Assembly: GCF_014200435.1 (NCBI RefSeq)
Contig: NZ_JACHBR010000001.1
Span: 2,232,001-2,296,000, forward strand
Direction of reading: 5' to 3'
Length of the DNA stretch: 64,000 bases
From: Sphaerisporangium krabiense
GTDB taxonomy: Bacteria; Actinomycetota; Actinomycetes; Streptosporangiales; Streptosporangiaceae
A program made the translations under genes and the position numbers. How positions within the stretch are numbered: position 1 is the stretch's first letter; each line of letters begins with the position of its first letter. Shown in pieces: positions 1 through 44,376 of this stretch. Below the pieces are notes generated by a model, which had not been told where the DNA came from, did not search any database, and saw only the letters and a program-made list of their open reading frames with translations.

Positions 1-369
1 GACACTTCGGACATCTTGCTCAATATCTTGACACCATCTGAAATGCAACGTTGGCCATTATTACGACCCGCCGGCCGGGCCGTCAAGGATTCAACTCTCC
101 ACGGGACCGTTCCAAATCCTGGCGACCGCGACGCCAACCCTATTCAACAAGTAGGTTTTGTGGAATTAACCATTCTTGCATCGCGTACAATGCTCGGCAT
201 CCCTTAGTCGACGGCGCGTGATAATCCACGGACACAGCGTTGCCATACCGCTTCCCGGGGATGAACGCTTGACAGTCCGATCAATGATGGGAGAGTGTCT
301 TTCCCGATCCCGATTACATCCGACATCCACCGCTATGCCCGGCGGAGCGGTCGCAAGGGACGGGTTAAA
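1..369. other. Upstream region without a convincing gene
   Basis: No open frame here has a ribosome binding site or family resemblance. The stretch is visibly less GC-rich than what follows and probably holds the promoter of the operon starting at 370. A TTGACA hexamer lies at 269-274, but I could not find an equally good -10 at 16-18 bases. AAGGGA at 355-360 is the ribosome binding site for the first gene. Confidence 0.4.
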
Positions 370-1416
370 TTGGACTTCAGTCTGTTCTATTTCTCCGCCG
401 ACAGCACCGGGAACGAGCGGAACCGCTACGAGCTCCTGATGGAGGGCGCGCGATTCGCCGACACCCACGACTTCCGCGCGGTGTGGACGCCCGAGCGCCA
501 CTTCCACCCCTTCGGGGGGCTGTACCCGAACCCCGCGGTGACCGGCGCCGCCGTCGCGGCCGTCACCGAGCGGGTCGGCATCCGCGCCGGCAGCGTCGTC
601 GCCCCGACCCACCACCCGGCGCGCGTCGCCGAGGAATGGGCCGTGGTCGACAACCTGTCCCGCGGCAGGGTCGGCGTCTCGTTCGCCTCCGGCTGGAGCG
701 CGATCGACTTCTCCTTCACCCCCGAGAACTACGCCCGGCGCCGCGAACTGCTCTTCGAGCACACCGAGGAGATACGCCGCCTCTGGCGTGGCGAGAGCCT
801 CGACGTCGTCGACGGCGCCGGCGCCCCCACCCGCGTCCGGATCTTTCCGCCGCCGGTGCAGGCCGAGCTGCCGGTCTGGATCACCAGCGGCGGCGACATC
901 GGAACGTTCCGCGGCGCCGGCCGCATCGGCGCCGGGCTGCTCACCCATCTGCTGGGGCAGGACATCGACGACCTCGGCAAGAAGATCGAGGAGTACCGCG
1001 CCGAGTACCGCGCGGCGACGAACGGGGGGCGCGGGCACGTCGCGCTGATGGTCCACACCTACCTCGGCGAGGACGACGACGAGATCCGCGAGATCGTCCG
1101 CGAGCCCCTCTACGAGTACCTGCGCAGCTCGATCAACCTGCTCGTGGGCTCGCGCAGCGTCGACGCCCGCAAGATCGACCCGGCGTCCCTGCGGCCCGCC
1201 GACGTCGACTTCCTCGTCCAGCGCTCCTTCGACCGGTACTTCGACGAGAGCGGCCTCCTCGGCGGCCTGGACAAGGGACGGCGGATCGTCGAGCGCCTGC
1301 GCGGCATCCAGGTCGACGAGATCGCGTGCCTGATCGACTTCGGGCTGCCCACCGCCGACGTGCTCAACGGCCTCAAGTATCTGGACCAGCTCCGCCAGTA
1401 CTGTCAGTCCCCATGA
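370..1416 (+). CDS. Luciferase-like (LLM class) flavin-dependent monooxygenase
   Basis: Predicted FMNH2-dependent monooxygenase of the bacterial luciferase superfamily, in the subgroup common in natural-product clusters. The 348-residue product opens with the family's first strand (LDFSLFYFSAD) and carries VWTPERHF near residue 40, THHPARVAEEWA near 80 and RVGVSFASGW near 100, all typical of the TIM-barrel flavin/substrate face; VWITSGGD near residue 170 is the usual mid-barrel segment. I start at TTG 370, nine bases after AAGGGA. A GTG at 295 would add 25 residues that look nothing like the family. Its TGA overlaps the next start (ATGA, 1413-1416), so the two are translationally coupled. The substrate cannot be told from sequence. 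The neighbours (PLP-like enzyme, dehydrogenase-like protein, TrpRS) suggest oxidation of an amino-acid-derived intermediate; that is inference. Confidence 0.85.
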   Translation: MDFSLFYFSADSTGNERNRYELLMEGARFADTHDFRAVWTPERHFHPFGGLYPNPAVTGAAVAAVTERVGIRAGSVVAPTHHPARVAEEWAVVDNLSRGRVGVSFASGWSAIDFSFTPENYARRRELLFEHTEEIRRLWRGESLDVVDGAGAPTRVRIFPPPVQAELPVWITSGGDIGTFRGAGRIGAGLLTHLLGQDIDDLGKKIEEYRAEYRAATNGGRGHVALMVHTYLGEDDDEIREIVREPLYEYLRSSINLLVGSRSVDARKIDPASLRPADVDFLVQRSFDRYFDESGLLGGLDKGRRIVERLRGIQVDEIACLIDFGLPTADVLNGLKYLDQLRQYCQSP

Positions 1417-2510
1417 CCACCCGAATGGCGATCGACGAGAACGACGGCCGGGCGACGCTGGCGGTCATCGGGACCGGCGGCCTCGCCCGCGCCGTCTGCT
1501 ACGCGCTCGCGGAGGGCGGGAGGCCCCTCCGGGTACTGGTGATCGGCAGGGATCCGCGCAGGACCGCCGAGGTGAGCTACATCGGCTCGGTGAAGACGCT
1601 CGGCACGCCTGTGACGTTCGAGCCGGTCACCGTGGACCTCGCCGCCGACGGCGCCCTTGCCGAGGTGCTCGCCGCGGCCCGGCCCACCGGCGTGCTGGTG
1701 CTCGCCTCGCCCCAGTCGCCGTGGGAACGTCTGAACGCCCCCTCGGACTGGACCCGCCTGGTCCAGCGCGCCGGATTCGGCCTCACCCTTCCCTTCCAGG
1801 CGCGCTTCGCCCGCCAGGCGGCCGAGGCGCTCGCCCGGTTCCGTCCCTCGGCCTGGCTCGTCAACGGCTGCCTTCCCGACGCGGTCAACCCGGTGCTGGC
1901 CGGCCTCGGCGTGCCCCCGCTGTGCGGGATCGGCAACGTCGCGCTGGTCGCCTCCGCCCTGCAGGCCGCGCTCGGCGTCCCCGAGCGTGCCCGACTGAAG
2001 GTGCTGGCCCACCACCTGCACCTGCACAGCCCGCCCCCGAACGCCGAGGAGGCCCTGGCCTGGGCCGACGGCAGGCCGGTCACCGGCGTGGGGGCACTGC
2101 TCGACGCCATGAGATCGGTGTCCAGACCCGAGCTCAACCTCCTCACCGGGCAGGCCGCCGCCCGCCTGGTCGGCGACGTGCTCGAGGGCCGGGACGCGCA
2201 CGCCAACCTCCCCGGCCCGCTCGGGCTCCCCGGCGGCTACCCCGTACGGATCTTCCGCCCGCACCCGGACGAGCCGGTGCGCGCGGAACTGAGCCTGCCG
2301 GACGGGGTGAGCGAGTCCGAGGCCGTCGCCTTCAACGAGCGGGCGGCGCGGCACGACGGCGTCGCCGTCGAGCACGGCCGCGTCGTCTTCACCCGGGTAC
2401 GGCCCGGTGACCTGCCCGCCGAGCTGGCCGACGGGTTCCCGGTGGGCGACCTGGACGAGGCCACCCGATGCCTGAGCCGATTCCGCGATCGCCTGCGCGG
2501 CGACACCTAG
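1413..2510 (+). CDS. NAD(P)-binding Rossmann-fold dehydrogenase-like protein
   Basis: 365 residues. The N-terminal part has a classical dinucleotide-binding turn, VIGTGGLARAVCYALA (about residues 14-29), followed by a second strand ending VLVIGRDPRR. This is the layout of saccharopine-dehydrogenase, TrkA and ornithine-cyclodeaminase-like Rossmann proteins. The rest has no motif I can assign; NGCLPDAVNPVLAGLG and GIGNVALVASALQAALG look like the catalytic/dimer half of an opine-type or aspartate-dehydrogenase-like reductase. The ATG overlaps the stop of the monooxygenase gene by four bases. The following gene begins 51 bases downstream after its own AGAGGAG. The likely role is an NAD(P)H-dependent reduction or dehydrogenation in the same pathway as its neighbours; this is inferred from context, and the exact family is not recognised. 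Confidence 0.7.
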   Translation: MTTRMAIDENDGRATLAVIGTGGLARAVCYALAEGGRPLRVLVIGRDPRRTAEVSYIGSVKTLGTPVTFEPVTVDLAADGALAEVLAAARPTGVLVLASPQSPWERLNAPSDWTRLVQRAGFGLTLPFQARFARQAAEALARFRPSAWLVNGCLPDAVNPVLAGLGVPPLCGIGNVALVASALQAALGVPERARLKVLAHHLHLHSPPPNAEEALAWADGRPVTGVGALLDAMRSVSRPELNLLTGQAAARLVGDVLEGRDAHANLPGPLGLPGGYPVRIFRPHPDEPVRAELSLPDGVSESEAVAFNERAARHDGVAVEHGRVVFTRVRPGDLPAELADGFPVGDLDEATRCLSRFRDRLRGDT

Positions 2511-2561
2511 CTCGCCACCACGTTCCCCCGCGAAGACCTCGCGAGACCCAGAGGAGCCAGC

Positions 2562-3944
2562 ATGCCGGAAACCGGCCTCGACGCGGCCACACCCGTACGG
2601 TCGGCCAATCTCCTGCTCGACTTCTTCGACCGGCTCGGCGAGGCGATCCCGGCGATCGCCGGGCACGTGGACCCGGTCCGCGACGGCGACGCGGCGTTCT
2701 CGCCAGGCTTCCTGCTCCCCGAGCCGGACGAGCCCCTGCGCCGCTTCTTATCCGCCGCCACCGTGCGGTGGCACCGGCTCGCCGGCTACGGCGGGCACCG
2801 CCTGCACCTCATGGACCTCACCGGCAACCCCGGCACGGGCACGACGAAGACCTTCGCGTCCCTGCTGATAGTGGCCCGCGCCGTCGCCTACATCCGCCGC
2901 TACGGCGAGAACGTGACGATCTTCTCCCCCACCTCGGCCAACAAGGGCACCGCCCTGCGCGACGCGGTGCTGCGCGCGATCGAGGCCGGGCTGGTCGAGC
3001 CGGAACAGTTGCGCGTCGTGATCGTCGCGCCGCGCTCGTGTCAGGCGAAGCTGCGGGCGAGCCGCCTGTCGGAGGACCCGGAGCTGCGCGCCCTGAACCC
3101 CGTGTTCCTCTACACCGGGCCCGAGCCGGAGCACGTCAAGGCGCTCGGGGCCGAGTTCGTCGAACGGTACGGCGCCGAGGCGGGCAAGCGGCTCGACACC
3201 CGGCTCTGGTACTCGCTGGAGCTGCGCAACTACATGGTCGCCGACGCCGCGCGGGCGTTCTTCGAACGGGAGGCCCTGCCCGACGCCACGGCCCGCCGCG
3301 TGCACGCCCACGCGGTGTCCAGCGCGTTCGGCCTGCTCGGGTACCACCAGGGCCGCGCGGCGCTGGAGCGCGCCGGACTGGCGCGCCCGGAGGACCGTCC
3401 CGCGAGCCTGCTCGTCCAGCACCTGGGCACGCCCGACATGGTGCTGAACCTCGTGCACGGCGACTTCGGCCGCGAGAACGTCCCCGCCTACACGACGGCG
3501 GCCGACGGGCTGTACCACCAGTCCGCGGACCCGCGCTTCCCGAGGGTCACCGCCGATCCGGGCGAGGTGCTGGACCCGACCTTCTACACGCACCGCCCCG
3601 CCACCTCCCCTGCCATGAACGAGCTGATCCGCCGGTACGGCGGCGACGGCATCGTGGTGTCCCTCGCCGAGTGCGTCGAGCGCTACCCGCTCCTGCGCCG
3701 GCTGCTCGACGGCACCGGATGCGCGCTGCCCGCCGACCTCCGCGAACTGCAGGAATGGTCGCTCGTCATGGCGCTGACCGGTGTGATGAACGCCGTCGAC
3801 CGGGGCCTGGTCGAGGGCGCGGGCCACGACATCGTCGTCCACGGCTCGGGCGCCTACGCCCGCGCGGACTACCGCCCCCTGAGATACTTCACGGAAGTGG
3901 AAGAACCAGGCGACATAGCGACCGCACTCTACGGCGACAGGTGA
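2562..3944 (+). CDS. Probable fold-type II PLP-dependent enzyme (uncharacterised family)
   Basis: 460 residues; the family is not named with certainty. The pattern around residues 85-150 resembles tryptophan-synthase-beta, threonine-synthase and cysteine-synthase enzymes: GTGTTKTFASLL supplies a candidate PLP-Schiff-base lysine. About 30 residues later SPTSANKGTALRDAV fits the SxN-G phosphate/substrate loop, and then comes VVIVAPRSCQAKLR, the usual strand-Lys element of these enzymes. The C-terminal third (LQEWSLVMALTGVMNAVD, HGSGAYARADY) could contain the Gly-rich turn and the residue facing the pyridine nitrogen. The length is close to threonine synthase. The start is well set by AGAGGAG five bases before ATG. 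The gene ends three bases before trpS. In context it could make or attach an unusual amino-acid side chain (beta-replacement chemistry). That is inference; biochemical function is unknown. Confidence 0.55.
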   Translation: MPETGLDAATPVRSANLLLDFFDRLGEAIPAIAGHVDPVRDGDAAFSPGFLLPEPDEPLRRFLSAATVRWHRLAGYGGHRLHLMDLTGNPGTGTTKTFASLLIVARAVAYIRRYGENVTIFSPTSANKGTALRDAVLRAIEAGLVEPEQLRVVIVAPRSCQAKLRASRLSEDPELRALNPVFLYTGPEPEHVKALGAEFVERYGAEAGKRLDTRLWYSLELRNYMVADAARAFFEREALPDATARRVHAHAVSSAFGLLGYHQGRAALERAGLARPEDRPASLLVQHLGTPDMVLNLVHGDFGRENVPAYTTAADGLYHQSADPRFPRVTADPGEVLDPTFYTHRPATSPAMNELIRRYGGDGIVVSLAECVERYPLLRRLLDGTGCALPADLRELQEWSLVMALTGVMNAVDRGLVEGAGHDIVVHGSGAYARADYRPLRYFTEVEEPGDIATALYGDR

Positions 3945-3947
3945 CCT

Positions 3948-4967
3948 ATGACCGATTCAGCGACCTCAGCCAACGTCAGCAAGCCGCGCGTCCTCTCCGG
4001 CATCACCGCGACCGGCAAGCTGACGATCGGCAACTACATCGGAGCGCTGAGCGTCTGGGCCGCCGAGCAGGACCGCTACGAGAACTTCTTCTTCATCGCC
4101 GACCTGCACGCGCTCACCATCCCCGAGAACATCAAGGCGGACGCGCTGCGCGAGCGCATCAAAGAGATCGTCGCGCTGTACCTGGCCTGCGGTCTGGACC
4201 CGGCCAAGTCCGTGCTGTTCCAGCAGTCCCGCGTGCCCGCGCACGCCTCCCTCGCCTGGATCTTCGACTGCGTGACGCCGGTCGGCTGGCTGGAGCGCAT
4301 GACGCAGTACAAGTCCAAGTCCCAGACGGCCACGCCGAGCGCCGGCCTCTTCACCTACCCGGCGCTGATGGCCGCCGACATCCTGCTGTACCAGGCGGCG
4401 TACGTCCCGGTCGGCGACGACCAGCGCCAGCACATCGAGATCACCCGCGACATCGCGCAGCGCTTCAACCACCTGTTCGGCGAGGCGTTCCGCGTGCCGG
4501 AGCCGCTGATCCGCGCCAGCGGCGCCCGCATCATGGGCCTGGACGACCCCACCGTGAAGATGAGCAAGAGCCTGGCCGAGACCCGCGACGGCCACGCGAT
4601 CGGCCTCCTCGACCCGCCGTCCAAGATCCGCAAGGCCGTGATGCGCGCGGTCACCGACTCGGGCTCGGAGGTACGCGGCGACGCGATCGGCCCCGGCGTG
4701 GACAACCTGCTCACGTTGTTCGAGGTCCTGTCCGGCACCGACCGCGCGAGCTCGCTGCGCCAGTTCGAGGGCCAGGGGTACGGCACCCTCAAGAAGGCCG
4801 TCGCCGAGGTCGCGATCGAACGGGTCGGCGCCATCCAGTCCCGCTACACCGAGATCCGCGCCGACGAGACCTACCTGGAGAAGACCCTCATCGAGGGCGC
4901 CGAGAAGGCCACCGCCGTCGCCGACCGCACCCTCTCCACCGCCATGCGCCTGACGGGCCTCCTCTGA
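3948..4967 (+). CDS. trpS: Tryptophanyl-tRNA synthetase with atypical Trp-pocket residues
   Basis: Class I aminoacyl-tRNA synthetase charging tRNA-Trp; 339 residues, normal length for the bacterial enzyme. Signature motifs are TIGN at residues 26-29 (HIGH equivalent), KMSKS at 204-208, DLHAL around 52-56, and VPVGDDQRQHIEITRD. The loop before TIGN reads SGITATG where most bacterial enzymes read SGIQPSG or similar. The residue matching Bacillus stearothermophilus Gln9, which lines the tryptophan/indolmycin pocket, is therefore Thr20, and the next residue is Ala instead of Pro. In the indolmycin-resistant TrpRS1 of Streptomyces coelicolor this Gln is Lys (published work). The gene sits inside an operon of catabolic/biosynthetic-type genes, starting three bases after the PLP-like gene and overlapping the next gene by one base (TGATG). 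It could be the housekeeping copy, but a second, resistance-type copy seems likelier. Confidence 0.93.
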   Translation: MTDSATSANVSKPRVLSGITATGKLTIGNYIGALSVWAAEQDRYENFFFIADLHALTIPENIKADALRERIKEIVALYLACGLDPAKSVLFQQSRVPAHASLAWIFDCVTPVGWLERMTQYKSKSQTATPSAGLFTYPALMAADILLYQAAYVPVGDDQRQHIEITRDIAQRFNHLFGEAFRVPEPLIRASGARIMGLDDPTVKMSKSLAETRDGHAIGLLDPPSKIRKAVMRAVTDSGSEVRGDAIGPGVDNLLTLFEVLSGTDRASSLRQFEGQGYGTLKKAVAEVAIERVGAIQSRYTEIRADETYLEKTLIEGAEKATAVADRTLSTAMRLTGLL

Positions 4968-6610
4968 TGCCGGACCTCGGCATGCGGGAGCGGCTCGACG
5001 CGCTCGCGGCGGAGTTCTGGACGTGGCGGGAGGCGACCGGCCCCGACTCCTCCGACGACCTTCCGCGCCTGGAGCGCCCGGCGGGCTGGCTTCCCGACTG
5101 GTCGGCGGACTCCGTCGCCGACCGCCGCCGGCGGCTGGGCGAGTTCGCCGCGCGGCACGCGAGCCTGGACACCACGGGCGAGCCGGTCGCCGTCCAGGTG
5201 AACGCCCGGCTGCTCGGCTGCGCCCTGGACCGCGCCCACTGGGAGCTGGACCTGCTGCGCGGCTGGCGCCGCAACCCCTGCTTCTACATCGACCAGAGCC
5301 TGGTCCCGGTCTACAACCTGCTGCTGGTCTCCACGCCCATCACCCCCGAGCGCGCCACCGCGATCATCCGCCTGCTGGACCACGTCCCCGTGGTGCTCGC
5401 CCAAGCGCGCGAGAACCTCGCGGGCGAGGCCGCGAAGCCGTTCGCGACCTCGGCGCTGCGCATCCTCGCCGACGCCGACACCCGGCTCGACACCGCGATG
5501 ACCGCGCTCGCCCCCTTCCTTCCCGAGGCGCGGGCGGCCGAGCTGCCTGCGGCGACGGCCAGGGCCGTCACCGCCGTGCGCGGCTACCGCGACTGGCTGC
5601 GCGAGTCGCTACCCACCTTCGCCCCGGACGGCGCGGCCGGGTCCCACGCCCTGCGGTTCCTGCTGCACCGCGTGGCCCTGCTGCCGTACTCGGTGGAGCA
5701 AATACGCGAGCTCGGCCGCCAGGAGTGGACGCGAGCGCTCGCGACGGAGGCGATGCTGGGCGCGCGGCACCGCGGCCACACGCCGCGGCCGGTGCCCGGC
5801 ACGGCCGAGCAGATCGCCCGGCAGCACGCCGCGGAGCAGGAGGTCCGCCGTTTCTACACCGGCCGCGACATCCTGACTCAGCCGCCCACGCTGCGCCACT
5901 ACCGCTTCGCGCCCTGCCCGCCCTACCTGGAGCCGCTGATCTGGCTCGGCGTCCCCGACGACCTGACCTCGCCCGCCCGCGCCGGCGAGGACGCCGTCAG
6001 GTACGTCGTCGCCACCGAGGCCGAGCCGCCGTACTTCGAACGCGCCGCGGCGATCGACCCGCGCACGATGATCGCCCACGAGGGCGTCCACGCCCAGCAG
6101 GTCGCCCTCTCCTGGCGCCACCCCGACCCCGCCCGCCGCCGCTTCTACGACTCCACCCCGAACGAGGGCATCGCGTTCTACAACGAGGAGCTCATGCTCC
6201 TGTCCGGCCTGTTCGACGACAGCCCCGAGGGCGCGGCGTTCGCCGCCAACGCGATGCGCCTGCGCGCCCTGCGCGTCGAGGTCGACATCGCCCTCGCCCT
6301 CGGCGAGCTCACCGTCGAGGCCGCGGCCGACCGCCTGCGCGACCTGGTCCCGATGGACGAGGAGACCGCATGGGACGAGGCCGTCTTCTTCCTGGGCAAC
6401 CCCGGCCAGGGCCTGAGCTACCAGATAGGCAAACTCCAGATCCTCGACCTCCTCGCCACCGCCACCCAACGCCCCGGCTTCACCCTCCGAACCTTCCACG
6501 ACGACCTCTGGCAGGAGGGCAACGTCCCCCTCTCCCTCCACCGCTGGCAATCCCTGAACCTCCCCGACCACCTCCACCGCTCCGCCCAGCTGGCCGCCGC
6601 CCTCTCCTGA
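4967..6610 (+). CDS. DUF885-family HExxH peptidase-like protein
   Basis: 547 residues and matching the DUF885 family, cytoplasmic zinc-peptidase-like proteins about 550-600 residues long. The diagnostic HExxH is at 371-375 (AHEGVHAQQ), and a downstream NEGIAFYNEEL supplies the candidate third metal ligand, Glu400. No signal peptide is visible. The N-terminal half is helical, as in the M3/M32-like members. Translation is coupled to trpS by a TGATG overlap, which makes a shared transcript very likely. In a biosynthetic operon such a protein could trim a peptide or amide precursor, or inactivate a product; in isolation it would simply be called a DUF885 hypothetical. No terminator-like hairpin of note follows, and the next gene starts 170 bases later behind its own strong ribosome binding site. 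Confidence 0.75.
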   Translation: MPDLGMRERLDALAAEFWTWREATGPDSSDDLPRLERPAGWLPDWSADSVADRRRRLGEFAARHASLDTTGEPVAVQVNARLLGCALDRAHWELDLLRGWRRNPCFYIDQSLVPVYNLLLVSTPITPERATAIIRLLDHVPVVLAQARENLAGEAAKPFATSALRILADADTRLDTAMTALAPFLPEARAAELPAATARAVTAVRGYRDWLRESLPTFAPDGAAGSHALRFLLHRVALLPYSVEQIRELGRQEWTRALATEAMLGARHRGHTPRPVPGTAEQIARQHAAEQEVRRFYTGRDILTQPPTLRHYRFAPCPPYLEPLIWLGVPDDLTSPARAGEDAVRYVVATEAEPPYFERAAAIDPRTMIAHEGVHAQQVALSWRHPDPARRRFYDSTPNEGIAFYNEELMLLSGLFDDSPEGAAFAANAMRLRALRVEVDIALALGELTVEAAADRLRDLVPMDEETAWDEAVFFLGNPGQGLSYQIGKLQILDLLATATQRPGFTLRTFHDDLWQEGNVPLSLHRWQSLNLPDHLHRSAQLAAALS

Positions 6611-6782
6611 CCCGGCCCGCCCCGTCTCCGCACCAGAATCGGCGTCGGCGCCTGCGCTGAAAGGGCATGCCCGTACCCCCCGAAGCGGGTCGGCGTTAAC
6701 CCAGGACCGTTTCTCGCAGGATGACCGAGGTGGCATTCTCACGCTGGCGGTGTGTCGTCTCCTAGCTTCAGGGGAGGCTTCC

Positions 6783-7499
6783 ATGCGGCGGCGTCCGGGG
6801 TGGCCATCGGAGACGTTTCTGGCGCGACTTCCCGAGGCGTCCCGGCAGGAGTTGCTGGGTCTCGGCCCGGTACACGCCCATCCCGCCGGCCGCGTACTGG
6901 TCCGCCAGGGAGACCCCGGCACCCTGCTGTACGTCATCGCGCACGGCCTGGTCAAGGTGACCGCGCGCACCGAGAACGGCAAGGAGTCGCTGCTCGCGGT
7001 GCGCGTGCGGGGCGATCTGGTCGGCGATATGGCTCTCGGCGGGTCGCCGCGCTCGGCGACCGTGACCACATGCGGCCCGACCACCACCTGCGTGATCAAG
7101 GGGGACGTCTTCCTCGCCTTCATATGCAGGCATCCGCCGGCCGCGCTGGCCTGGAACACCTTCACCGGGGAGCGGCTGCGCTGGGCCAACCAGCGGCGAC
7201 TGGAGTTCGCCGGGTACGACAGCGACGTCTGCCTCGCCCGGCTGCTACTGGCGCTGCTCGCACGGCACGGCCGTCCCACGAGGCACGGCATGGACCTCGG
7301 TGTCCCGCTGACCCAGCCGGAACTGGGCAGCCTCATCGGCGCCAAGGAGAGCACCGTGCAGAAGATCCTCCGGGATCTCTCCGTCCGGGGACTGGTCCGC
7401 ACCGGCCGTCGGCGCGTGGTCGTCACCGATGTGCCGGGCCTGACGGCCTTCGCCGAACTCCCCCCGTCCTCGGCAGAGAATCATCGGGCCAAGCCCTAA
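6783..7499 (+). CDS. Crp/Fnr-family transcriptional regulator
   Basis: 238 residues. An N-terminal cyclic-nucleotide-binding beta barrel spans about residues 10-130; GRVLVRQGDPGTLLYVIAHG and GDLVGDMALGGSPRSATVTT are its hallmark turns, and an FGE-type phosphate-binding cassette is not clearly kept (DLVGDMAL instead). The C-terminal Crp-type winged helix follows (LTQPELGSLIGAKESTVQKI as recognition region, then RGLVRTGRRRVVVTD). ATG 6783 is chosen because AGGGGAGG at 6770-6777 sits just ahead of it; a GTG at 6750 lacks this. The ligand cannot be predicted and may not be cAMP. It lies 73 bases upstream of the cyclase-homology gene, same strand, so a regulatory link (or nucleotide second-messenger link) with the next three genes is attractive but unproven. 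Confidence 0.9.
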   Translation: MRRRPGWPSETFLARLPEASRQELLGLGPVHAHPAGRVLVRQGDPGTLLYVIAHGLVKVTARTENGKESLLAVRVRGDLVGDMALGGSPRSATVTTCGPTTTCVIKGDVFLAFICRHPPAALAWNTFTGERLRWANQRRLEFAGYDSDVCLARLLLALLARHGRPTRHGMDLGVPLTQPELGSLIGAKESTVQKILRDLSVRGLVRTGRRRVVVTDVPGLTAFAELPPSSAENHRAKP

Positions 7500-7572
7500 T
7501 AATGCGGGTTCCCCTATTCCGGCCGTTCGCACAATCGAGGACGGCATGTGCCGGGCGAACGGGAGGAGCCCC

Positions 7573-8358
7573 ATGCGCGACGAACGCGAGTTCCGCTTGA
7601 TGATCACATCGGACATCGAGGATTACGGGGGGCGCAGCGACGGCGACCAGGTGGAGCTGCAACAGAGGCTGACGCGTGTCCTGGACCTGGCCGCCGGAGC
7701 GGCGGGTCTGGCGTGGCTGGAGTGGAAACAGCAGCCACAGGGGGACGGCTACTTCACCGTCCTGCCTCCAGGCACCGACGCCGCGACCGTTCTCGGGCCC
7801 TTCATGACGGCGCTCGCCCGGAACGTCGAGGCCGCGAACCGGGGACGGGACCGCATGCGCCTGCGGCTGTCCGTGCACGGCGGGCCGATCCATGTGCACG
7901 GCGCCGCGGGGTCGCCGGGGGGCCACGCCGTCCAGTCGGGAAGGCTGGTGGGAGCCGCCCCGCTGCGCGCCGCCATGGGCGCGCGCCCAGAGGCCGGCCT
8001 CGGGGTGATCATCTCGGACCGGGTCTATGAGGACTTCGTCGGTCAGGGGTACGGCGGTCCGTCCCGCGAGGAGTTCCGCCACGTGCACGTGACGGCGAAG
8101 TCACAGGAATATCAGGCTTACGTCCACCTCCCCGGGCACAACGTTCATCGGCTGTCCGAGCTGGACGAATACGACGTCGAGCCGGGGGTCCACGGCGACG
8201 ACGAGGTAGTCCGGGAGGCCGAGCGAGGCGGGGTGACCGCGGGCCGTGATTATTACGGCGGCGGCACCGCCACGGCCGGCGGCAACGGCGTCGCCTTCAC
8301 GGCCGGCAGAGACGCGTTCTTCGGCGACGATCCGCGCGACGGGAGGCGCCGCCGATGA
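7573..8358 (+). CDS. Class III nucleotidyl-cyclase-homology domain protein with Gly-rich tail
   Basis: 261 residues, hypothetical by name. Residues 8-180 follow the class III cyclase layout. ITSDIEDYGGR places Asp14 in the first metal position, GDGYFTVL places Asp58 in the second, RLRLSVHGGPI matches the next strand, and GVIISDRVYEDFV matches the late 'ilvS..v' strand. The Asn-x3-Arg transition-state motif is not recognisable (QSGRLVGAAP instead), so catalytic activity is uncertain. The tail (about 219-254) is glycine-rich and twice carries TAGRD followed by aromatic residues, a pattern shared with the next protein. ATG 7573 follows GGGAGGAG at 7561-7568 at a standard distance. The stop overlaps the next start (ATGA). 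It probably acts with the next two genes as one module; function unknown. Confidence 0.6.
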   Translation: MRDEREFRLMITSDIEDYGGRSDGDQVELQQRLTRVLDLAAGAAGLAWLEWKQQPQGDGYFTVLPPGTDAATVLGPFMTALARNVEAANRGRDRMRLRLSVHGGPIHVHGAAGSPGGHAVQSGRLVGAAPLRAAMGARPEAGLGVIISDRVYEDFVGQGYGGPSREEFRHVHVTAKSQEYQAYVHLPGHNVHRLSELDEYDVEPGVHGDDEVVREAERGGVTAGRDYYGGGTATAGGNGVAFTAGRDAFFGDDPRDGRRRR

Positions 8359-10547
8359 GTGATCCCTCCCCCGCCCCCGACCCGTCTGTGCCTCCCGAAG
8401 GGGAGCGACCGTTCTCGGCCGACGAGCCCCCTTCCGACGGACCCGGGCGGGATGACGGGCAGCGGCCGGACGACGGTCCTGACGACCGGGACGATCCCGA
8501 TGGCGATGACGAACAGGGCAGTTCGCAGGAACCCGGCGACGACCCCATGCTCGCGCGACGTGTCCACGAGGAGGAGCGCAACCTGTGGCTCCGGCTGAAC
8601 ATCCTGCGACGGCTGGCAGGGCTCGAGACAACGGCCGGGCGCGACGCGTTCGGCGGGCCGGTCAACCACGCGCGGGGCAACGGCCACGCTTACGGCGCCG
8701 GACGCGACTTCTTCTTGAACCATTTCGCCTCTGATGGCGGCCCGCACGTGCAGAGCGCGCCGATGACCGCAGAGCAACTCGGACGGCTCAAAGGGTGCCT
8801 GGTCACCACTCGCTCCCAGACCCGGCTGACGGCGATGCTGGCCACCGAGCCACTCGTGGTGCTGCGCGGGCTGCCCGGGATGGGGCGGGTCACGACGGCC
8901 ATGGCCGCGCTCCAGGATGTGACCGAGTCCTGTCACTGGATCATGCTCCGCGACCCGTTCCGCCTGACCACGGAGGACCTAAAGAAGCGCGCCGGGTACG
9001 TCGTGAACGCCGACGTACCCGAGTGGACGTCACGACCGGAGGAGTTCGCGGAGTTCCTGGCATCGATGGCACTGCGCAAGGACTGCCGCATCGTCCTCGT
9101 CAGCGCGGACTTCGACCTTCCCCACCGGGTGGTGGACCACGATCCACCGGCCGCCGTCGAGGTGTGCCGGGCCACGGTCGCCTACTTGCTCCGCGACCCG
9201 GACGCGTGGGAGAGGCACGGACTGGACGCTCTCGACATCGGCCAGCTGCTGTCCGGCCGCCGCCCGCGCGAGGCGGCGTTGTTGGCCGAAGGCCTGGCGG
9301 ACGGCGTGCGGCGTGGCCTGCCCGTCCAAGACGTGCTCGATGCCCAGCCGGTGTTCACACGGACACGGTTCCGTGAGCATCTGAACAAGGATCTGACCAG
9401 GTCCGGCCACTGCTTCCTCATCAGCAGCGCGGTGCTGCACGGCCTGCCGGAACCCGCGGTGTCATCGGCGGCGCTGGAGCTCGCCAGGCTGATCGCCGAC
9501 GGCACAGGCGTGGAGGAGGAGCCCGATGACGGCCCCGTATGGGAACGCCTGAGGAGCTGGCTCGGCTATTCGGACATCAGCGCGGTCGAGGGCGACCGCC
9601 CAGGTGAGGGACGGCGCGTGCGGTTGCGCGAGGATCTCGTTTCGCTGCTCCTGCCGATGCTGTGGGAGGAACTGCCGGGGGTGCGCCCGCACCTCTACGT
9701 CTGGCTGCGCCGGCTTGGGGACGGTCCGGACGAGCACGTGCGGATCAAGGTGGCGCACGCGGTGGGCCTTCTCGCGACCTGCGACTTCGACCTGGTCCAG
9801 CGGGAGTTCCTCGACGGGTGGAGCCGTGATCGCAAGCCGGCACGCAAGCAGCTCGCCGCCTGGGCCCTGGAAGCGGCGGCCGGAGCGCCCGGGCTGAGCG
9901 GCCGCGTGGACCGCCTGCTGCGCGAGTGGGCGGAGTACGGCCCGTACGAGCGCCTGGCGACGGCCGCGATCGCGTATGGCTCGCCGACCCGTGTTCGAGA
10001 CCTCGGCGACGCGCTCGACACGTTCGAGCGGATCACCAGGGTCACCCGGAGGTACTGGCTCTGCGACGCCGTCGCGCGGTCGGTCGCCGACATCTACGCG
10101 CCGGATACCGCGCGACCCGTCGTCGGCGCGCTGGCCCGGTGGGCGCGCGGCGAGGCGGCGGGCGGGCGGCTCGCGGCCGCGCTGGCGCTGGTGCGGCTCG
10201 GCGGGCCACGCCCCGGTGCCCGTCCCGTGCTGCTGGACCACGGCGACGACGAGGATCTGATCGCCCTATGGAGCCGGTCCCTTGAGCTGACGTTGTCGTC
10301 CGACCGGATGGCGGGGCGGGGGTCGAGCTTGTCGGGCCGCCTGTGGGAGCTGTTCACCGCATGGGTGGGGGCGTGGGAGGAGTGCCCGTCCTTACGGCCG
10401 GTGGTCGCGGGCGTCCTCCTGTCGGCCGGTCAGGGAGAGGTGCGGCTGCGCCGTACCTACCAGCTCTACCTGCTGCTGTGGCGGCGTACGGCGACCGTTT
10501 CCGGCGAGCTCTTCGACCATCTGAACCGCATCCTGAAGGACTGGTGA
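8355..10547 (+). CDS. Large P-loop-like NTPase protein with AGRD motifs and helical-repeat C-terminus
   Basis: 730 residues, no assigned family. Order of parts: an acidic, Pro/Asp-rich disordered head (about 1-65); a short helical stretch; TAGRDAFGG (from residue 93) and GAGRDFF (about 113), the same glycine-rich motif as in the preceding protein; a P-loop-like GLPGMGRVT at 172-180 where the invariant Lys is Arg and the following Ser/Thr is Val; and RIVLVSADFD, a plausible Walker B strand. A long alpha-helical C-terminal half follows (about 330-730) that looks like HEAT/ARM-type repeats. This resembles STAND/NLR-like architecture with a degenerate nucleotide site. It overlaps the cyclase-like gene by four bases and precedes the next gene by three bases. 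Role in sensing or immunity is inference. Confidence 0.55.
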   Translation: MSDPSPAPDPSVPPEGERPFSADEPPSDGPGRDDGQRPDDGPDDRDDPDGDDEQGSSQEPGDDPMLARRVHEEERNLWLRLNILRRLAGLETTAGRDAFGGPVNHARGNGHAYGAGRDFFLNHFASDGGPHVQSAPMTAEQLGRLKGCLVTTRSQTRLTAMLATEPLVVLRGLPGMGRVTTAMAALQDVTESCHWIMLRDPFRLTTEDLKKRAGYVVNADVPEWTSRPEEFAEFLASMALRKDCRIVLVSADFDLPHRVVDHDPPAAVEVCRATVAYLLRDPDAWERHGLDALDIGQLLSGRRPREAALLAEGLADGVRRGLPVQDVLDAQPVFTRTRFREHLNKDLTRSGHCFLISSAVLHGLPEPAVSSAALELARLIADGTGVEEEPDDGPVWERLRSWLGYSDISAVEGDRPGEGRRVRLREDLVSLLLPMLWEELPGVRPHLYVWLRRLGDGPDEHVRIKVAHAVGLLATCDFDLVQREFLDGWSRDRKPARKQLAAWALEAAAGAPGLSGRVDRLLREWAEYGPYERLATAAIAYGSPTRVRDLGDALDTFERITRVTRRYWLCDAVARSVADIYAPDTARPVVGALARWARGEAAGGRLAAALALVRLGGPRPGARPVLLDHGDDEDLIALWSRSLELTLSSDRMAGRGSSLSGRLWELFTAWVGAWEECPSLRPVVAGVLLSAGQGEVRLRRTYQLYLLLWRRTATVSGELFDHLNRILKDW

Positions 10548-10550
10548 GCG

Positions 10551-11324
10551 ATGTCGTTCCTTTTCAAGCACTACAGCTTCGCCCCCGAGCCGTCCCTGCC
10601 GAAGGGAGGCGAAGTGCTGTCGTTCCTCTCGCCCGCCGCCGGCGAGGCGTTCGACTTCGCCGTGTCCGTACGCCTGCGGCTGCTTGCCGGTGGACGGCGC
10701 AGGTCGTGGGCACCCGACCGCGAGGAGGTCGACCGGGTCGGCGAATTCGTGCGCCGGACGGTCCGGGGCACGACCCGCGGGCACTCCGTCTTCGACGTGG
10801 TCAATGCTGAGGCCGCGGTCAACCAAACCCTCGACCGTCGTCTGATGGGGGTCTCGCACGACGATCCAGCCATCATCTCGCGGTGGGGGGCGACCGCCGA
10901 GCTCGCGCTACCGGAGCGCGTCAAGGAGGTCAGGCGGGCCCACGAGATCGCCGTGTACGAGCTGGACGCCCAGGCGAAGGTCACCGAACGGCGCGTGGAC
11001 CGGCTCAGGGAGTCCAGCGGGATCTGGACGGCGCTGCTGGACGAGACCACGAGGAACCCGTACGCCCGCTACGCCGTGCGACTGACCCAGAACGACGCGT
11101 CCCCGGCCGAGATCGTCGAGCGGATGCTCGACACACGACGGGAGGACGCCGACCAGCTCCTCACCCTCGTCGCGAAGATCGTGAACGCGCAGCAGGCGGC
11201 GGGGGTGGTCGACCTCGTGCTCGCCAGCGACACCGCGCTACGGGCGGCCTTCCAGCGCCTCGGCGTGCCGCTGCCCCCGGCCGATCCCGACTCGCCGTTC
11301 GCGCCCCTTGATCCGGTGCCCTGA
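10551..11324 (+). CDS. Hypothetical third gene of the cyclase-like/P-loop module, SPFH-like
   Basis: 257 residues, not recognised with confidence. The beta-rich N-terminus (FDFAVSVRLRLL near residue 36) is followed by a helix-strand segment SVFDVVNAEAAVNQTLDRRL and ISRWGATAELALPERVKEVR, then a charged helix (AHEIAVYELDAQAKVTERRV). That order is reminiscent of SPFH/band-7/stomatin proteins, but there is no membrane anchor and no clear diagnostic motif. The C-terminal 70 residues are helical. It starts three bases after the stop of the P-loop protein, so it is the last gene of a three-gene operon. Only 16 bases separate its stop from the convergent Ppx/GppA gene, and no terminator hairpin is visible between them. 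Confidence 0.5.
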   Translation: MSFLFKHYSFAPEPSLPKGGEVLSFLSPAAGEAFDFAVSVRLRLLAGGRRRSWAPDREEVDRVGEFVRRTVRGTTRGHSVFDVVNAEAAVNQTLDRRLMGVSHDDPAIISRWGATAELALPERVKEVRRAHEIAVYELDAQAKVTERRVDRLRESSGIWTALLDETTRNPYARYAVRLTQNDASPAEIVERMLDTRREDADQLLTLVAKIVNAQQAAGVVDLVLASDTALRAAFQRLGVPLPPADPDSPFAPLDPVP

Positions 11325-21549: not shown

Positions 21550-22554
21550 TCAGCGGGCGTGGATGGCGCGGAGTGATTCCTTCAGGGAGCCGAGGGTGGC
21601 GAAGATGGCGGTGGGCTCGTAGCCGCAGTGGGCCATGCAGTTGGCGCAGCGCGGGTCGCGGCCCCGGCCGTAGGCGTCCCAGTCGGTCTCCTCCAGCAGC
21701 TCCCGGTACGTGCGGGCGTAGCCGTCCGACATCAGGTAGCACGGGCGCTGCCAGCCGAACAGCGAGTACGACGGTATGGCCCAGGCGGTGCAGGGGAAGT
21801 CGACCTTCCCTTCGAGGAAGTCCAGGAACAGCGGCGAGTGGTTGAAACGCCACCTGCGGCGGTTGCCGCCCGCGAACGCCTTCCTGAACAGGGCGCGGAT
21901 CTCCGTCACGCCGAGGAAGTGCTCCTGGTCCGGGGCCTTCTCGTAGGCGTAGGCCGGGGAGATCATCATCTGGTCCACGGCCAGGTCGTCGTTGAGGTAG
22001 TTGAGCACGTCGATGACGGTCTGCGGGGAGTCGCCGCTGTAGAAGGTGGTGTTCGTCGTGACCCGGAAGCCGCGGCGCCGGCATTCGCGGACGGCGGCCA
22101 CCGCCTCGTCGAAGACGCCCTGCTTGCACACCGACGCGTCGTGGCGCTCGCGCAGGCCGTCGATGTGGACGGTCCAGGCGAAGTACCGCGACGGCGTGAA
22201 CTGGTCGATCTTCCTCGGGATCAGCACGGCGTTGGTGCACAGGTAGACGTACTTCTTGCGCTCGACGAGCCGGCGCACCATCTCCCCGATCTGGGGGTGC
22301 ATGAGCGGTTCGCCGCCCGCGATGGAGACCATGGGCGCGCCGCTCTCCTCGACGGCCGCGACGGCCTGCTCGACGGGCATGCGCCGCTTCAGCACGTCGG
22401 CGGGATGCTGGATCTTGCCGCAGCCCGCGCACGCCAGGTTGCAGGCGAACAGCGGCTCCAGCTCGACCAGGAGCGGGAACTTGCCGCGCCGCCGCAACTT
22501 CTGACGAAGTATGTAGCCGCCGACGGCCAGGCTCTGGCGAAGTGGGATCGTCAT
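21550..22554 (-). CDS. hpnH: Adenosyl-hopane synthase, radical SAM protein HpnH
   Basis: 334 residues. The radical SAM cluster cysteines are Cys38, Cys42 and Cys45 (CNLACAGC), followed by SIAGGEPLMHP, the SAM-binding GGE motif. The C-terminal half has a further cysteine group (CANCMAHCGYEP) characteristic of HpnH. The enzyme attaches the 5'-deoxyadenosyl radical of SAM to diploptene, giving adenosylhopane, the first step of side-chain extension. It is the last gene of the hopanoid operon, and its ATG overlaps the hpnG stop by four bases. The length agrees with the family. Confidence 0.95.
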   Translation of the reverse strand: MTIPLRQSLAVGGYILRQKLRRRGKFPLLVELEPLFACNLACAGCGKIQHPADVLKRRMPVEQAVAAVEESGAPMVSIAGGEPLMHPQIGEMVRRLVERKKYVYLCTNAVLIPRKIDQFTPSRYFAWTVHIDGLRERHDASVCKQGVFDEAVAAVRECRRRGFRVTTNTTFYSGDSPQTVIDVLNYLNDDLAVDQMMISPAYAYEKAPDQEHFLGVTEIRALFRKAFAGGNRRRWRFNHSPLFLDFLEGKVDFPCTAWAIPSYSLFGWQRPCYLMSDGYARTYRELLEETDWDAYGRGRDPRCANCMAHCGYEPTAIFATLGSLKESLRAIHAR

Positions 22555-23261
22555 GACAGCACCTCCCCGGGAGGCGGGATCCGGATGTCGTCCTCGGTCC
22601 TGCCGGGCCGAGGCCCCGTCTGTTCCACGGCGCGCGCCCAACGGGTGAGGGCGGGGCCGGCGAGGCGGAGCGCGCGGCGCGCGGTGAGGCCCGCGCGGAG
22701 GGTGGCGAGGCCGAGCAGCGGCGTCCCCGGGCCGTCCACGACGACGCGCACCGCGGCCACCGGGCGTCCCCCGGCCGCCTCGGTGAGGGGCCCGGACTCC
22801 ATGTCCACGGCGAGGGCCACGTCCCGGCCGGGTGAGGAGGCCCCGCGGGGGCCGGGCACGGGGCCCGGGCGGCGGGTCGCGGCGAGGCGGCGGCGTTCGG
22901 TCTCGCGCACCACGTGGCCGATGGTCAGCAACGGCCCGACGCGGACGCGCAGCCCGGCCCGCGTGAGTTCCCCGGCCAGCAGGGACGCGGACGCGCAGGG
23001 GTGGGCGCGCGCGCCGAACCGCACCTCGTCGGCCACCACCACGTCCCCGGGCCGCAGCGCCGCGTCGAGCGCGCCGCCGAAACCGGCCACGGCCAGCGCG
23101 TCGTACGGCGGCAGCAGGCACCCGGCGCGTGCGGCGCGCCGCGGGCCCATGCCGGTCCTGATCACGCGCGCCTCCACGCCCGCCGGGGGCGCGGCGGCGA
23201 GACCGTGGCGCAGGGCCCTGGCTTCGAGGGCGAGCGCGGCACAGATCAGGAGACGGGTCAT
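22551..23261 (-). CDS. hpnG: Hopanoid-associated adenosylhopane nucleosidase HpnG
   Basis: 236 residues, purine phosphorylase/nucleosidase fold. LLICAALALEARALR opens as in HpnG, GMGPRRAARAG near residue 38 is the phosphate/ribose loop, VAGFGGALDAALRPGDVVVADE corresponds to the G-G-L substrate strand, and VDMESGPLTEAA carries the ribose-binding MEsg signature. HpnG removes adenine from adenosylhopane to give ribosylhopane. The gene overlaps both neighbours by four bases, so expression is coupled to shc and hpnH. There is a low-complexity Arg/Pro stretch in the middle (about residues 125-145), not expected to be structured. Confidence 0.9.
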   Translation of the reverse strand: MTRLLICAALALEARALRHGLAAAPPAGVEARVIRTGMGPRRAARAGCLLPPYDALAVAGFGGALDAALRPGDVVVADEVRFGARAHPCASASLLAGELTRAGLRVRVGPLLTIGHVVRETERRRLAATRRPGPVPGPRGASSPGRDVALAVDMESGPLTEAAGGRPVAAVRVVVDGPGTPLLGLATLRAGLTARRALRLAGPALTRWARAVEQTGPRPGRTEDDIRIPPPGEVLS

Positions 23262-25222
23262 GGAGCGCCGTCCCCCTCACGGGCGGCCAGGACGCCGTCC
23301 CCCTCGCGCGCGGCGAGGTGGTCGTCCCCGCCGGCGGCGGCCAGGGCGCCGTCCCGTTCGCGGGCGGACAGGTAGCGGCCGAGCGCGGTGATCGGGAAGA
23401 CGAGCCGGTAGAGGTGGTAGTTGATGTAGAAGTCGCCGGGGAACCCGGTTCCGGTGAAGTACGGCTCGTCCCAGGTGCCGTCCGGCCGCTGGGTCTCCAC
23501 GAGCCACCGCACGCCCCGGTCCACGGCCTCGGAGCGGTCTCCCGCGGCGAGCAGGGCGAGCAGCGCCCAGGCGGTCTGCGACGCGGTGGAGGCGCCGCGC
23601 CCGATCCAGGCCGGGTCGTCGTAGGAGCGCAGGTCCTCCCCCCAGCCACCGTCCTCGTTCTGGTGGTCGCGCAGCCAGGCGACCGCGCGCCGCACGCAGG
23701 CGCTCTCCGGGCGCACACCGGCCGCGACCAGCGCCGGGACCACGGCGCCCGTGCCGTACACGTGGTTGGCGCCCCAGCGTCCGAACCAGGAGCCGTCCGC
23801 CTCCTGCGCCTTGAGCAGCCAGACGACCGCGCGCCGCATCAGCCGGGTCCGCGTGTACCCCTCGTGGGCGAGCGCCTCGACGACGTGCGCGGTGACGTCG
23901 GCGGACGGCGGGTCGATGACCGCGCCGAAGTCGCAGAACGGCAGCCGCCTGATGAGCTCGCGGGTGTTGTCGGCGTCGAAGGCCGCGAAGCCGCCGTCCC
24001 GGGACACCATGCCCGCCATCCACCGCACCCCGCGGTCGACGGCCTCGCGCCCGCCGGGACGCCGGGTGCGGCGCAGGGCGAGGACGACCTCGGCGGTGTC
24101 GTCGGTGTCGGGGTAGCCGTCGTTGTCGAACTCGAAGGCCCACCCGCCGGGTGGCAGTCCCGGCCGCCGCACGGCCCAGTCGCCCGGCCCTTTGACCTCT
24201 TCACCGATCAGCCAGTCCGCGGCCTGGACGATGACCGGGTCGTCGGCGGGGACGCCGGCGTCCAGCAGCGCGTTGACCGCGAGCGCGGTGTCCCAGACCG
24301 GGGACTGGCACGCCTCCAGCCTGCGCCCCTTGCCGTCCCTGATCGTGAACCGGTCCAGCCCCTGGATGCCCCTTCGCATGACGGGGTGGTCGACGTCGTA
24401 TCCGGACAGGTTGAGCGCGATCAGCGAGTACACCCACGGCGGCTGGATGCCACCCCAGGAGCCGTCCGGCTCCTGCCGGGCCACGATCCACTCGGCGGCG
24501 CGCCGCAGCGCCGCCCGGCGCGCGCCCTTGAAAGGCGCCCGCTCGTACCGGCGCAGCACGTGGTCCAGCGCGGCGAACGCGGCGGCCCGGCCCGTGCGCG
24601 CCTTCCGCCGCACGGGCCGTCCGGCACGCAGCTCGTCCAGGCCGAACGGGAGGGGGCGCACGGGCCGGTGCGCGCGGACGATGGTGAGCGGGACGATGGT
24701 CTGCCGGGCCCAGCACCCCCAGTCGTACACGTTGAGCGGGAACCACGGCGGCAGGTACACGAGCTCCGGCGGCAGCGCGGGCAGGTCCTCCCACCGCCAC
24801 AGCCCGAACAGGGCCAGCCAGACGCGGGTGAACACGCGGGTCGCCTCGATGCCGCCCGAGCGCAGGACGTAGGCGGCGGCGGCGCGCATGTGCGGGGCCT
24901 CGGGCGGGTCGCCCGCGAGGCGCAGCGCGGCGTACGCCTCGACCGTGGTGGACAGGTCGGGCGGGGCGCCGTGGAAGTTGGCCCAGGTGCCGTCGGCGCG
25001 CTGCTCGGCGCGGATCCACCGCGCCGCCTCCGCGGTGTCCTGCTCGCCGCGGATGCCGAGGAACTCCCGCAGCAGCAGGTCCTCGGCGTCCATGGTCACG
25101 TTGGTCTGCAACTCGCCCTTCCACCATCCCTGCGGCGAGCGCAGGCCGATCAGGTGGTCGCAGGCCGCGCCGAGGGCGAGCCCGGCGCTGGAAGCGGGCA
25201 GGTCGACGTCGACGGTGGTCAT
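23258..25222 (-). CDS. shc: Squalene-hopene cyclase
   Basis: 654 residues, terpenoid cyclase of the squalene-hopene type. Several QW repeats are visible (for example QEPDGSWGGIQ, QEADGSWFGRWG, QNEDGGWGEDL, QRPDGTWDEP). The catalytic acid DTDD lies near residue 372 within the strand WAFEFDNDGYPDTDD. PPWFPLNVYDWGCWAR is another conserved segment. It cyclises squalene to hop-22(29)-ene/hopanol at the membrane surface. The C-terminal 33 residues (after YLSA) are extra: about four copies of a nine-residue unit (REGDGVLAA-like). The start overlaps the stop of the polyprenyl synthase gene by one base, and the stop overlaps hpnG by four. Confidence 0.97.
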   Translation of the reverse strand: MTTVDVDLPASSAGLALGAACDHLIGLRSPQGWWKGELQTNVTMDAEDLLLREFLGIRGEQDTAEAARWIRAEQRADGTWANFHGAPPDLSTTVEAYAALRLAGDPPEAPHMRAAAAYVLRSGGIEATRVFTRVWLALFGLWRWEDLPALPPELVYLPPWFPLNVYDWGCWARQTIVPLTIVRAHRPVRPLPFGLDELRAGRPVRRKARTGRAAAFAALDHVLRRYERAPFKGARRAALRRAAEWIVARQEPDGSWGGIQPPWVYSLIALNLSGYDVDHPVMRRGIQGLDRFTIRDGKGRRLEACQSPVWDTALAVNALLDAGVPADDPVIVQAADWLIGEEVKGPGDWAVRRPGLPPGGWAFEFDNDGYPDTDDTAEVVLALRRTRRPGGREAVDRGVRWMAGMVSRDGGFAAFDADNTRELIRRLPFCDFGAVIDPPSADVTAHVVEALAHEGYTRTRLMRRAVVWLLKAQEADGSWFGRWGANHVYGTGAVVPALVAAGVRPESACVRRAVAWLRDHQNEDGGWGEDLRSYDDPAWIGRGASTASQTAWALLALLAAGDRSEAVDRGVRWLVETQRPDGTWDEPYFTGTGFPGDFYINYHLYRLVFPITALGRYLSARERDGALAAAGGDDHLAAREGDGVLAAREGDGAP

Positions 25223-28408: not shown

Positions 28409-28411
28409 CCC

Positions 28412-44323: not shown

Positions 44324-44376
44324 CGGCCCATCCCTTCCTTTTCTTTATGCGCCTCTATCCGGTCTACCCCCTGGGC

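Follow-up and report, generated by a model that had tools for sequence, protein, structure and literature searches.

Sphaerisporangium krabiense carries a second tryptophanyl-tRNA synthetase (TrpRS) within a compact five-gene operon (positions 370-6610, + strand) of a 64,000-nucleotide stretch of its genome, hereafter the window (assembly GCF_014200435.1, contig NZ_JACHBR010000001.1, positions 2,232,001 to 2,296,000 of the forward strand). We found that the five genes belong to a larger non-ribosomal peptide synthetase (NRPS) cluster of ~28.5 kb (G000:C1 ~2210120-2238610, the ends being set by our own judgement), of which they form the rightward arm. The operon TrpRS belongs to a distinct lineage and has an altered tryptophan pocket, and we lean slightly towards the view that it is a self-resistant copy of the target of this cryptic cluster's product.

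The operon is one arm of an NRPS cluster

An original prediction for this DNA had described five same-strand genes with compact junctions, and an open reading frame (ORF) check on the window confirmed every ORF and all four junctions, which are, in order, an ATGA overlap (1413-1416), a gap of 51 bases, a gap of 3 bases and a TGATG overlap. The TrpRS gene, codirectional with the genes on either side, lies between the last two of these junctions. The prediction had also taken the operon to be biosynthetic, which was borne out in that it forms an arm of an NRPS cluster; its further proposal of an undescribed small pathway complete in five genes was rejected, because an NRPS arm lies upstream of the window.

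This second arm, examined on L076 (G000:C1:2213001-2232600) and L078 by gene calls and Pfam, runs on the - strand, and the gene caller places its first start codon 117 bases before window base 1, a distance that depends on this choice of start. It contains condensation (C), adenylation (A) and carrier (T) domains (PF00668, PF00501 and PF00550) together with MbtH (PF03621) and a thioesterase (PF00975). The only enzyme dependent on pyridoxal phosphate (PLP) in the scanned arm was of class V (SufS-like), no search having been aimed at an aromatic aminotransferase. A tRNA scan of L076, L078 and the window gave no tRNA-Trp. One weak promoter-like match was present in window positions 1-7600 (- strand, 57-86; mean of 0.3 in shuffled sequence).

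The operon TrpRS is a second, divergent copy

Elsewhere in the genome, at C1:613397-614374, lies another TrpRS gene, whose product is 46% identical to the operon TrpRS and groups in our tree with the TrpRS of the order (Streptosporangiales). The TrpRS of the window is therefore both second and divergent, as predicted, and the refuting case of a genome with only one trpS is false. A misplaced sole housekeeping trpS was likewise rejected given this 46% identical second gene. A third PF00579 match, on C2, was not recovered with the TrpRS protein and was taken as a tyrosyl-tRNA synthetase. The operon TrpRS is full length, scores 327 bits against the trpS equivalog TIGR00233 (cut-off 177) and keeps KMSKS, the indole-nitrogen-binding Asp, the pocket His and Gln150.

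Among the matches listed from 297 genomes of the order, the closest relative was 73% identical and came from G001, a genome of a different family whose other TrpRS is 49% identical to the operon enzyme; the rest were at most 50% identical. A scan of the class (394 genomes, E ≤ 1e-105; G001 was not listed there, apparently not having been drawn) added only two relatives, both 58% identical and, by eye, in apparent housekeeping surroundings, and all 153 matching records of a plasmid search were below 60% identity. In a tree of 52 TrpRS, the window and G001 enzymes formed a clade (support 100/99) that was sister (100/99) to the two 58% enzymes, of family f19, and stood apart from the TrpRS of the order and from a clade of seven Streptomyces-side second copies. 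Membership of the Streptomyces auxiliary (TrpRS1-type) clade was rejected on this separation and on the presence of Thr, not Lys, at the position equivalent to E. coli Gln11. Two deep-branching second TrpRS, ~36% identical to that of the window, were also seen (L154 and L155, of G656 and G658); in these, the Gln11 position is occupied by Arg and the pocket His is replaced by Gln.

We inspected ten pocket positions, of which eight came from an excerpt of PMC10201369, one was a His (Bs H43, as given in an excerpt of PMC4899734) whose place in the alignment was set by eye, and one was the equivalent of E. coli Gln11. The Gln11-equivalent was Gln in 32/32 comparison TrpRS, which we assumed to be inhibitor-sensitive, but Thr in the operon TrpRS and Ala in G001; at the remaining nine positions the operon residue also occurred among the comparison enzymes. 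The comparison set comprised 28 TrpRS of the order, chosen as its best-scoring matches rather than at random, the other genomic copy, the E. coli enzyme and the two f19 enzymes. As a control we took nine genomes found via their DUF6002 loci (seven of Streptomyces, one of Kitasatospora and one of Actinacidiphila), each of which had two TrpRS: the better-matching copy had Gln in 9/9, while the second copies had Lys (6), Arg (2) or Gln (1). Natural second TrpRS copies thus tend to differ at the very position that is altered in the operon enzyme. In 2002, Kitabatake and colleagues are reported to have traced the indolmycin resistance of Streptomyces coelicolor TrpRS1 to a Lys at this position, and we take the Gln11-equivalent of the operon TrpRS to be that same position, which would liken the pocket change to indolmycin-type resistance.

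Partner enzymes of the two arms

The original prediction had called the gene before trpS a probable fold-type II PLP enzyme, and a structure model supports this. The DUF6002 protein matched PALP only below threshold (0.024); its AlphaFold2 model (pLDDT, predicted local distance difference test, 91.9) had threonine synthases as best Foldseek matches (E 2.4e-12, TM-score ~0.5, 15-19% identity), with CapA2, tryptophan synthase beta, threonine deaminase and O-phosphoserine sulfhydrylase among further matches. K96, named as candidate PLP lysine from its motif position, is present in 33/34 aligned sequences and is Trp in L127. We therefore predict a fold-type II PLP enzyme. Profile matches to the first 50-90 residues of the neighbouring Rossmann protein were to 5-ketofructose reductase and to shikimate and saccharopine dehydrogenases (E 0.0025-0.06). 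This pairing is presumably the same as that of SbnA and SbnB in diaminopropionate synthesis, a fold-type II PLP enzyme with an NAD enzyme; unlike SbnA/SbnB, DUF6002 is nearest to threonine synthase by fold and its Rossmann partner has no known family above cut-off.

The GNAT-fold protein of the opposite arm was modelled with a pLDDT of 89.2. Its Foldseek ranks 1-24 were all aminoacyl-tRNA-dependent transferases or putative ones, some entries being the same protein, with modest TM-scores (0.34-0.40 of query; root-mean-square deviation ~9-12 Å); the closest were the peptide synthases Sba18/Sbb17, FemX, MprF and related structures, and coenzyme A-type acetyltransferases began at rank 25. Lys273 and Lys279 were kept in all ten transferase sequences compared. 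On this structural likeness the FemX-like protein may use an aminoacyl-tRNA donor. PDB sequence searches with this protein and with DUF6002 gave no real match.

The DUF885 protein carries the motif HEGVH and belongs to a widespread family, with matches in 132/297 genomes of the order. A relative (48% identical) occurs in the related cluster L123, together with DUF6002, GNAT-fold, luciferase-like, AsnB and NRPS genes. By eye, relatives in L121 (58%) and L131 (50%) adjoin apparent peptide ATP-binding cassette (ABC) transporters, and that of L122 (58%) has no apparent neighbours of this kind. A peptidase role for the window protein is thus putative. The luciferase-like monooxygenase at the head of the operon starts with TTG, position 1 of TIGR04020 aligning with its residue 3, and scores 462 bits (cut-off 244).

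DUF6002 loci in other actinomycetes

DUF6002 matches were found in 24/297 genomes of the order, that of the window included (22 above cut-off), and in 0/9 other genomes of the window's genus; the cluster therefore looks patchily distributed. We surveyed 54 DUF6002 loci (46 from a first set and 8/9 additional stretches) with flanks of at most ~10 kb per side, several loci ending at contig edges. The count leaves out G254 (L130), whose DUF6002 gene was missed by the gene caller, G184, with short flanks only (L011; Rossmann gene present), and the sub-cut-off G035 and G240.

The Rossmann protein accompanied DUF6002 in 43/54 loci, with PanD in 15, AsnB in 6 and a DUF885 relative in 1. A LanB-like protein, counted by homology to a 764-aa member from L036 that is itself PF04738 by Pfam, was present in 29/54, the GNAT-fold protein in 9/54, neither in 16/54 and both in 0/54. 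According to an excerpt of PMC12945691, these two kinds of protein each include aminoacyl-tRNA-using enzymes. Across L030-L074 (for example L036:11347-21341), LanB-N-like proteins stand among NRPS and ketosynthase genes, an unexpected place for a tRNA-type dehydratase domain.

Other contexts were also seen. In L067, DUF6002 and the Rossmann protein lie in a phosphonate-type cluster with a phosphoenolpyruvate mutase and a thiamine pyrophosphate-dependent decarboxylase by Pfam; L068 has the same content by homology, and L126 the decarboxylase halves only. Four further FemX-like loci (L161-L164) were examined, of which three also have DUF6002. The FemX-like protein of L161 and L163 adjoins type III polyketide synthase and enoyl-CoA hydratase genes (Pfam in L161 only; dihydroxyphenylglycine-like by eye) and lies near amidinotransferase-like genes (by eye, without Pfam match). 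In L128 (7711-15761), DUF6002, PanD and Rossmann genes adjoin genes for a methionyl-tRNA synthetase (MetRS)-like protein, a cupin, a protein with a saccharopine-dehydrogenase C-terminal domain and a lysine/ornithine N-hydroxylase, a set that we take to resemble a hydrazine-forming cassette.

In the open-licence literature, we found no paper on DUF6002 or on the combination of aspartate decarboxylase, AsnB and luciferase-like genes; among the matches listed there for threonine synthase with LanB, for amidinotransferase/dihydroxyphenylglycine with PanD and for streptothrisamine/FemABX, nothing fitted.

Gene content and surroundings

The genes of both arms are given in Table 1. Beyond the operon, window 6750-11324 holds a gene for a CRP-family regulator followed by three codirectional genes (7573-8358, 8355-10547 and 10551-11324). 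By eye, 21550-29254 is a hopanoid set, with genes for an HpnH-like radical S-adenosylmethionine protein, squalene-hopene cyclase and squalene synthase-like proteins, and 41726-49064 is an operon for potassium uptake of the Kdp type, which includes a KdpD-like sensor kinase.

Table 1 Features of the two arms of the cluster (window positions, or order of genes in the opposite arm).
Feature	Position	Strand	Evidence
Intergenic region between divergent arms, window part	1-369	.	gene calls
FMN (flavin mononucleotide)-dependent luciferase-like monooxygenase, MupA/Atu3671 family	370-1416	+	PF00296 3e-45; TIGR04020 'seco_metab_LLM' 1e-138
Rossmann-fold dehydrogenase-like protein	1413-2510	+	no family above cut-off
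DUF6002 protein, predicted fold-type II PLP enzyme, threonine-synthase-like	2562-3944	+	PF19465 4.3e-186
Second TrpRS	3948-4967	+	PF00579 2.6e-67; trpS equivalog TIGR00233 9e-98
DUF885 HExxH protein, predicted zinc peptidase/hydrolase	4967-6610	+	PF05960 4.8e-44
Methyltransferase-containing protein	opposite arm, 1st	-	gene calls/Pfam
MbtH	opposite arm, 2nd	-	PF03621
PaaK-like adenylating enzyme	opposite arm, 3rd	-	named by eye; no Pfam match
Class-V (SufS-like) PLP enzyme	opposite arm, 4th	-	Pfam
NRPS A-T protein	opposite arm, 5th	-	Pfam
NRPS C-A-T-C protein	opposite arm, 6th	-	Pfam
NRPS A-T-C-A-T protein	opposite arm, 7th	-	Pfam
PanD-type aspartate decarboxylase	opposite arm, 8th	-	Pfam
FemX-like aminoacyl transferase, GNAT-fold	opposite arm, 9th	-	PF13480
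AsnB-like amidotransferase	opposite arm, 10th	-	Pfam
MFS (major facilitator superfamily) exporter	opposite arm, after AsnB-like gene	-	named by eye
Methyltransferase	opposite arm, after MFS gene	-	Pfam
Type II thioesterase	opposite arm, after methyltransferase	-	PF00975

Discussion

We propose that the DUF6002 and Rossmann proteins probably provide an uncommon building block, either an amino acid or an amine, that PanD would give a decarboxylated (beta-alanine-like) unit, and that the NRPS would build a chain to which the FemX-like enzyme would add a residue from an aminoacyl-tRNA. The luciferase-like monooxygenase would oxidise an intermediate, and the most likely role of the DUF885 protein is to trim the peptide or inactivate it. 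TrpRS is most likely the target that the product, or a processed form of it, inhibits, and the Gln-to-Thr change in its tryptophan pocket would allow the operon TrpRS to sustain translation.

Resistant second copies of aminoacyl-tRNA synthetases (aaRSs) in producers are a known kind, established according to excerpts of PMC9437257, PMC7916415 and PMC6804068. Excerpts of PMC10201369 and PMC7916415 treat TrpRS as an attractive target for antibacterials and name indolmycin and chuangxinmycin, each a tryptophan analogue, as its two natural inhibitors. The chuangxinmycin cluster was discovered via its trpRS gene (PMC12087186, in excerpt). As in the producers of chuangxinmycin (second TrpRS in the cluster; PMC12087186) and indolmycin (in the same genome; PMC6804068), both in excerpt, S. 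krabiense has a second TrpRS, but it belongs to an NRPS cluster rather than a short tryptophan-modifying pathway and has Thr rather than Lys. Unlike the Streptomyces-side second copies, it is also sister to the TrpRS of another actinobacterial family, in a tree that covers these copies. Among the matches listed from the open-licence literature, a TrpRS of this lineage with Thr, together with NRPS, FemX-like and DUF6002 genes, was not found.

Several results weigh against a self-resistant target copy. Nothing points to a tryptophan-like product. Of the A domains, read by eye with tentative codes at the GrsA positions, none looked Trp-like, one looked glycine-like and one cationic. The pocket change is to a smaller residue, Thr, not the Lys of S. 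coelicolor, and one of the nine control second copies keeps Gln. The G001 TrpRS adjoins PhyH, CMD, SnoaL, AAT and amidohydrolase genes, with no obvious TrpRS-inhibitor cluster. TrpRS was also found in 0/54 DUF6002 loci and 0/4 further FemX-like loci within the flanks surveyed, searched by BLAST with the window TrpRS and one MetRS-like protein only; the core chemistry therefore does not generally need a TrpRS. The other half of the refuting case, a trpS without conserved orthologues of its four partner genes beside it, was accordingly borne out within the loci surveyed, and the 73% relative stands in an unrelated gene set. On the other side, G001 is absent among the DUF6002-positive genomes of the order and gave no FemX-like match in a search run without a positive control, and such a separate distribution would fit a portable resistance gene. 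The idea of TrpRS-based self-resistance put forward originally thus stands in part: the altered position is the one reportedly tied to indolmycin resistance, while the tryptophan-like product expected with it is not indicated.

The operon TrpRS might instead be a dedicated source of Trp-tRNA, or of a Trp-analogue-tRNA, for the FemX-like transferase, with resistance perhaps as a second role; we regard this as unlikely, though it is the rival that we take most seriously. It would fit the structural matches and conserved lysines of the opposite-arm protein, and a TrpRS whose KMSKS and indole-binding Asp are kept and whose inspected pocket residues, the Gln11 site aside, are also seen in comparison enzymes. 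There is also a precedent: an excerpt of PMC12945691 describes AcmD, an extra alanyl-tRNA synthetase (AlaRS) of the ascamycin cluster, as both supplying Ala-tRNA and resisting the product. As in that cluster, an extra aaRS and an aminoacyl-tRNA-using enzyme (there AcmF) stand together here, although AcmF is AlaRS-like, not FemX-like, and an NRPS is present in S. krabiense. The same excerpt lists VlmA, PacB, DhpH-C/DhpK and Orf11 as FemABX-like aminoacyl-tRNA-dependent transferases, the kind to which, through Sba18/Sbb17 and FemX, the model of the opposite-arm protein comes closest. A PDB sequence search with the profile of this protein did not reach that kind, and here it is paired with DUF6002, PanD and AsnB. 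However, the 13 other loci with the transferase (9 + 4) show no TrpRS in the DNA examined, the genome's other TrpRS should already give Trp-tRNA, no transferase match came from G001 in the search mentioned above, and use of tRNA is itself deduced from modest TM-scores. By analogy with AcmD, resistance and supply may hold together. A more specific and improbable version has the cluster making a hybrid peptide, in which the dedicated TrpRS supplies Trp, or an analogue picked out by its altered pocket, through the FemX-like transferase to the NRPS chain and the product inhibits TrpRS.

Chance insertion of an auxiliary TrpRS with no bearing on the product, either a general indolmycin-type resistance gene or a stress copy like Streptomyces TrpRS1, seems quite improbable to us. 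A second trpS is common in actinomycetes (two in 9/9 control genomes), the clade occurs in the unrelated context of G001, and the operon combination was met only once; yet the gene fits tightly into its operon at both junctions, is flanked by genes that recur in this cluster type (DUF6002 and DUF885) and falls outside the auxiliary lineage of Streptomyces. That the enzyme has been repurposed as a biosynthetic ligase that does not charge tRNA is, in our estimate, very improbable. MetRS-like proteins act as ligases in hydrazine-forming cassettes, and one stands beside cupin and lysine N-hydroxylase genes in the DUF6002-PanD-Rossmann cluster L128, but the operon TrpRS lies well over the trpS equivalog cut-off, is full length and keeps KMSKS, the indole-binding Asp, the pocket His and Gln150.

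If the operon TrpRS both feeds and protects, the hybrid would come from an NRPS pathway fed by Trp-tRNA in which a single enzyme provides both supply and immunity. The pathway would belong to a wider and so far little-studied set of DUF6002 clusters, which have either a FemX-like or a LanB-like protein, never both in the loci surveyed. For DUF6002 itself, the survey provides a setting, that of a threonine-synthase-like PLP enzyme recurring in actinomycete NRPS, phosphonate-type and possibly hydrazine-forming clusters. If instead the operon TrpRS is a self-resistant target copy, an altered TrpRS of the cluster's own, together with an NRPS peptide and a transferase that is tRNA-dependent by its predicted fold, would point to a new class of TrpRS inhibitor.

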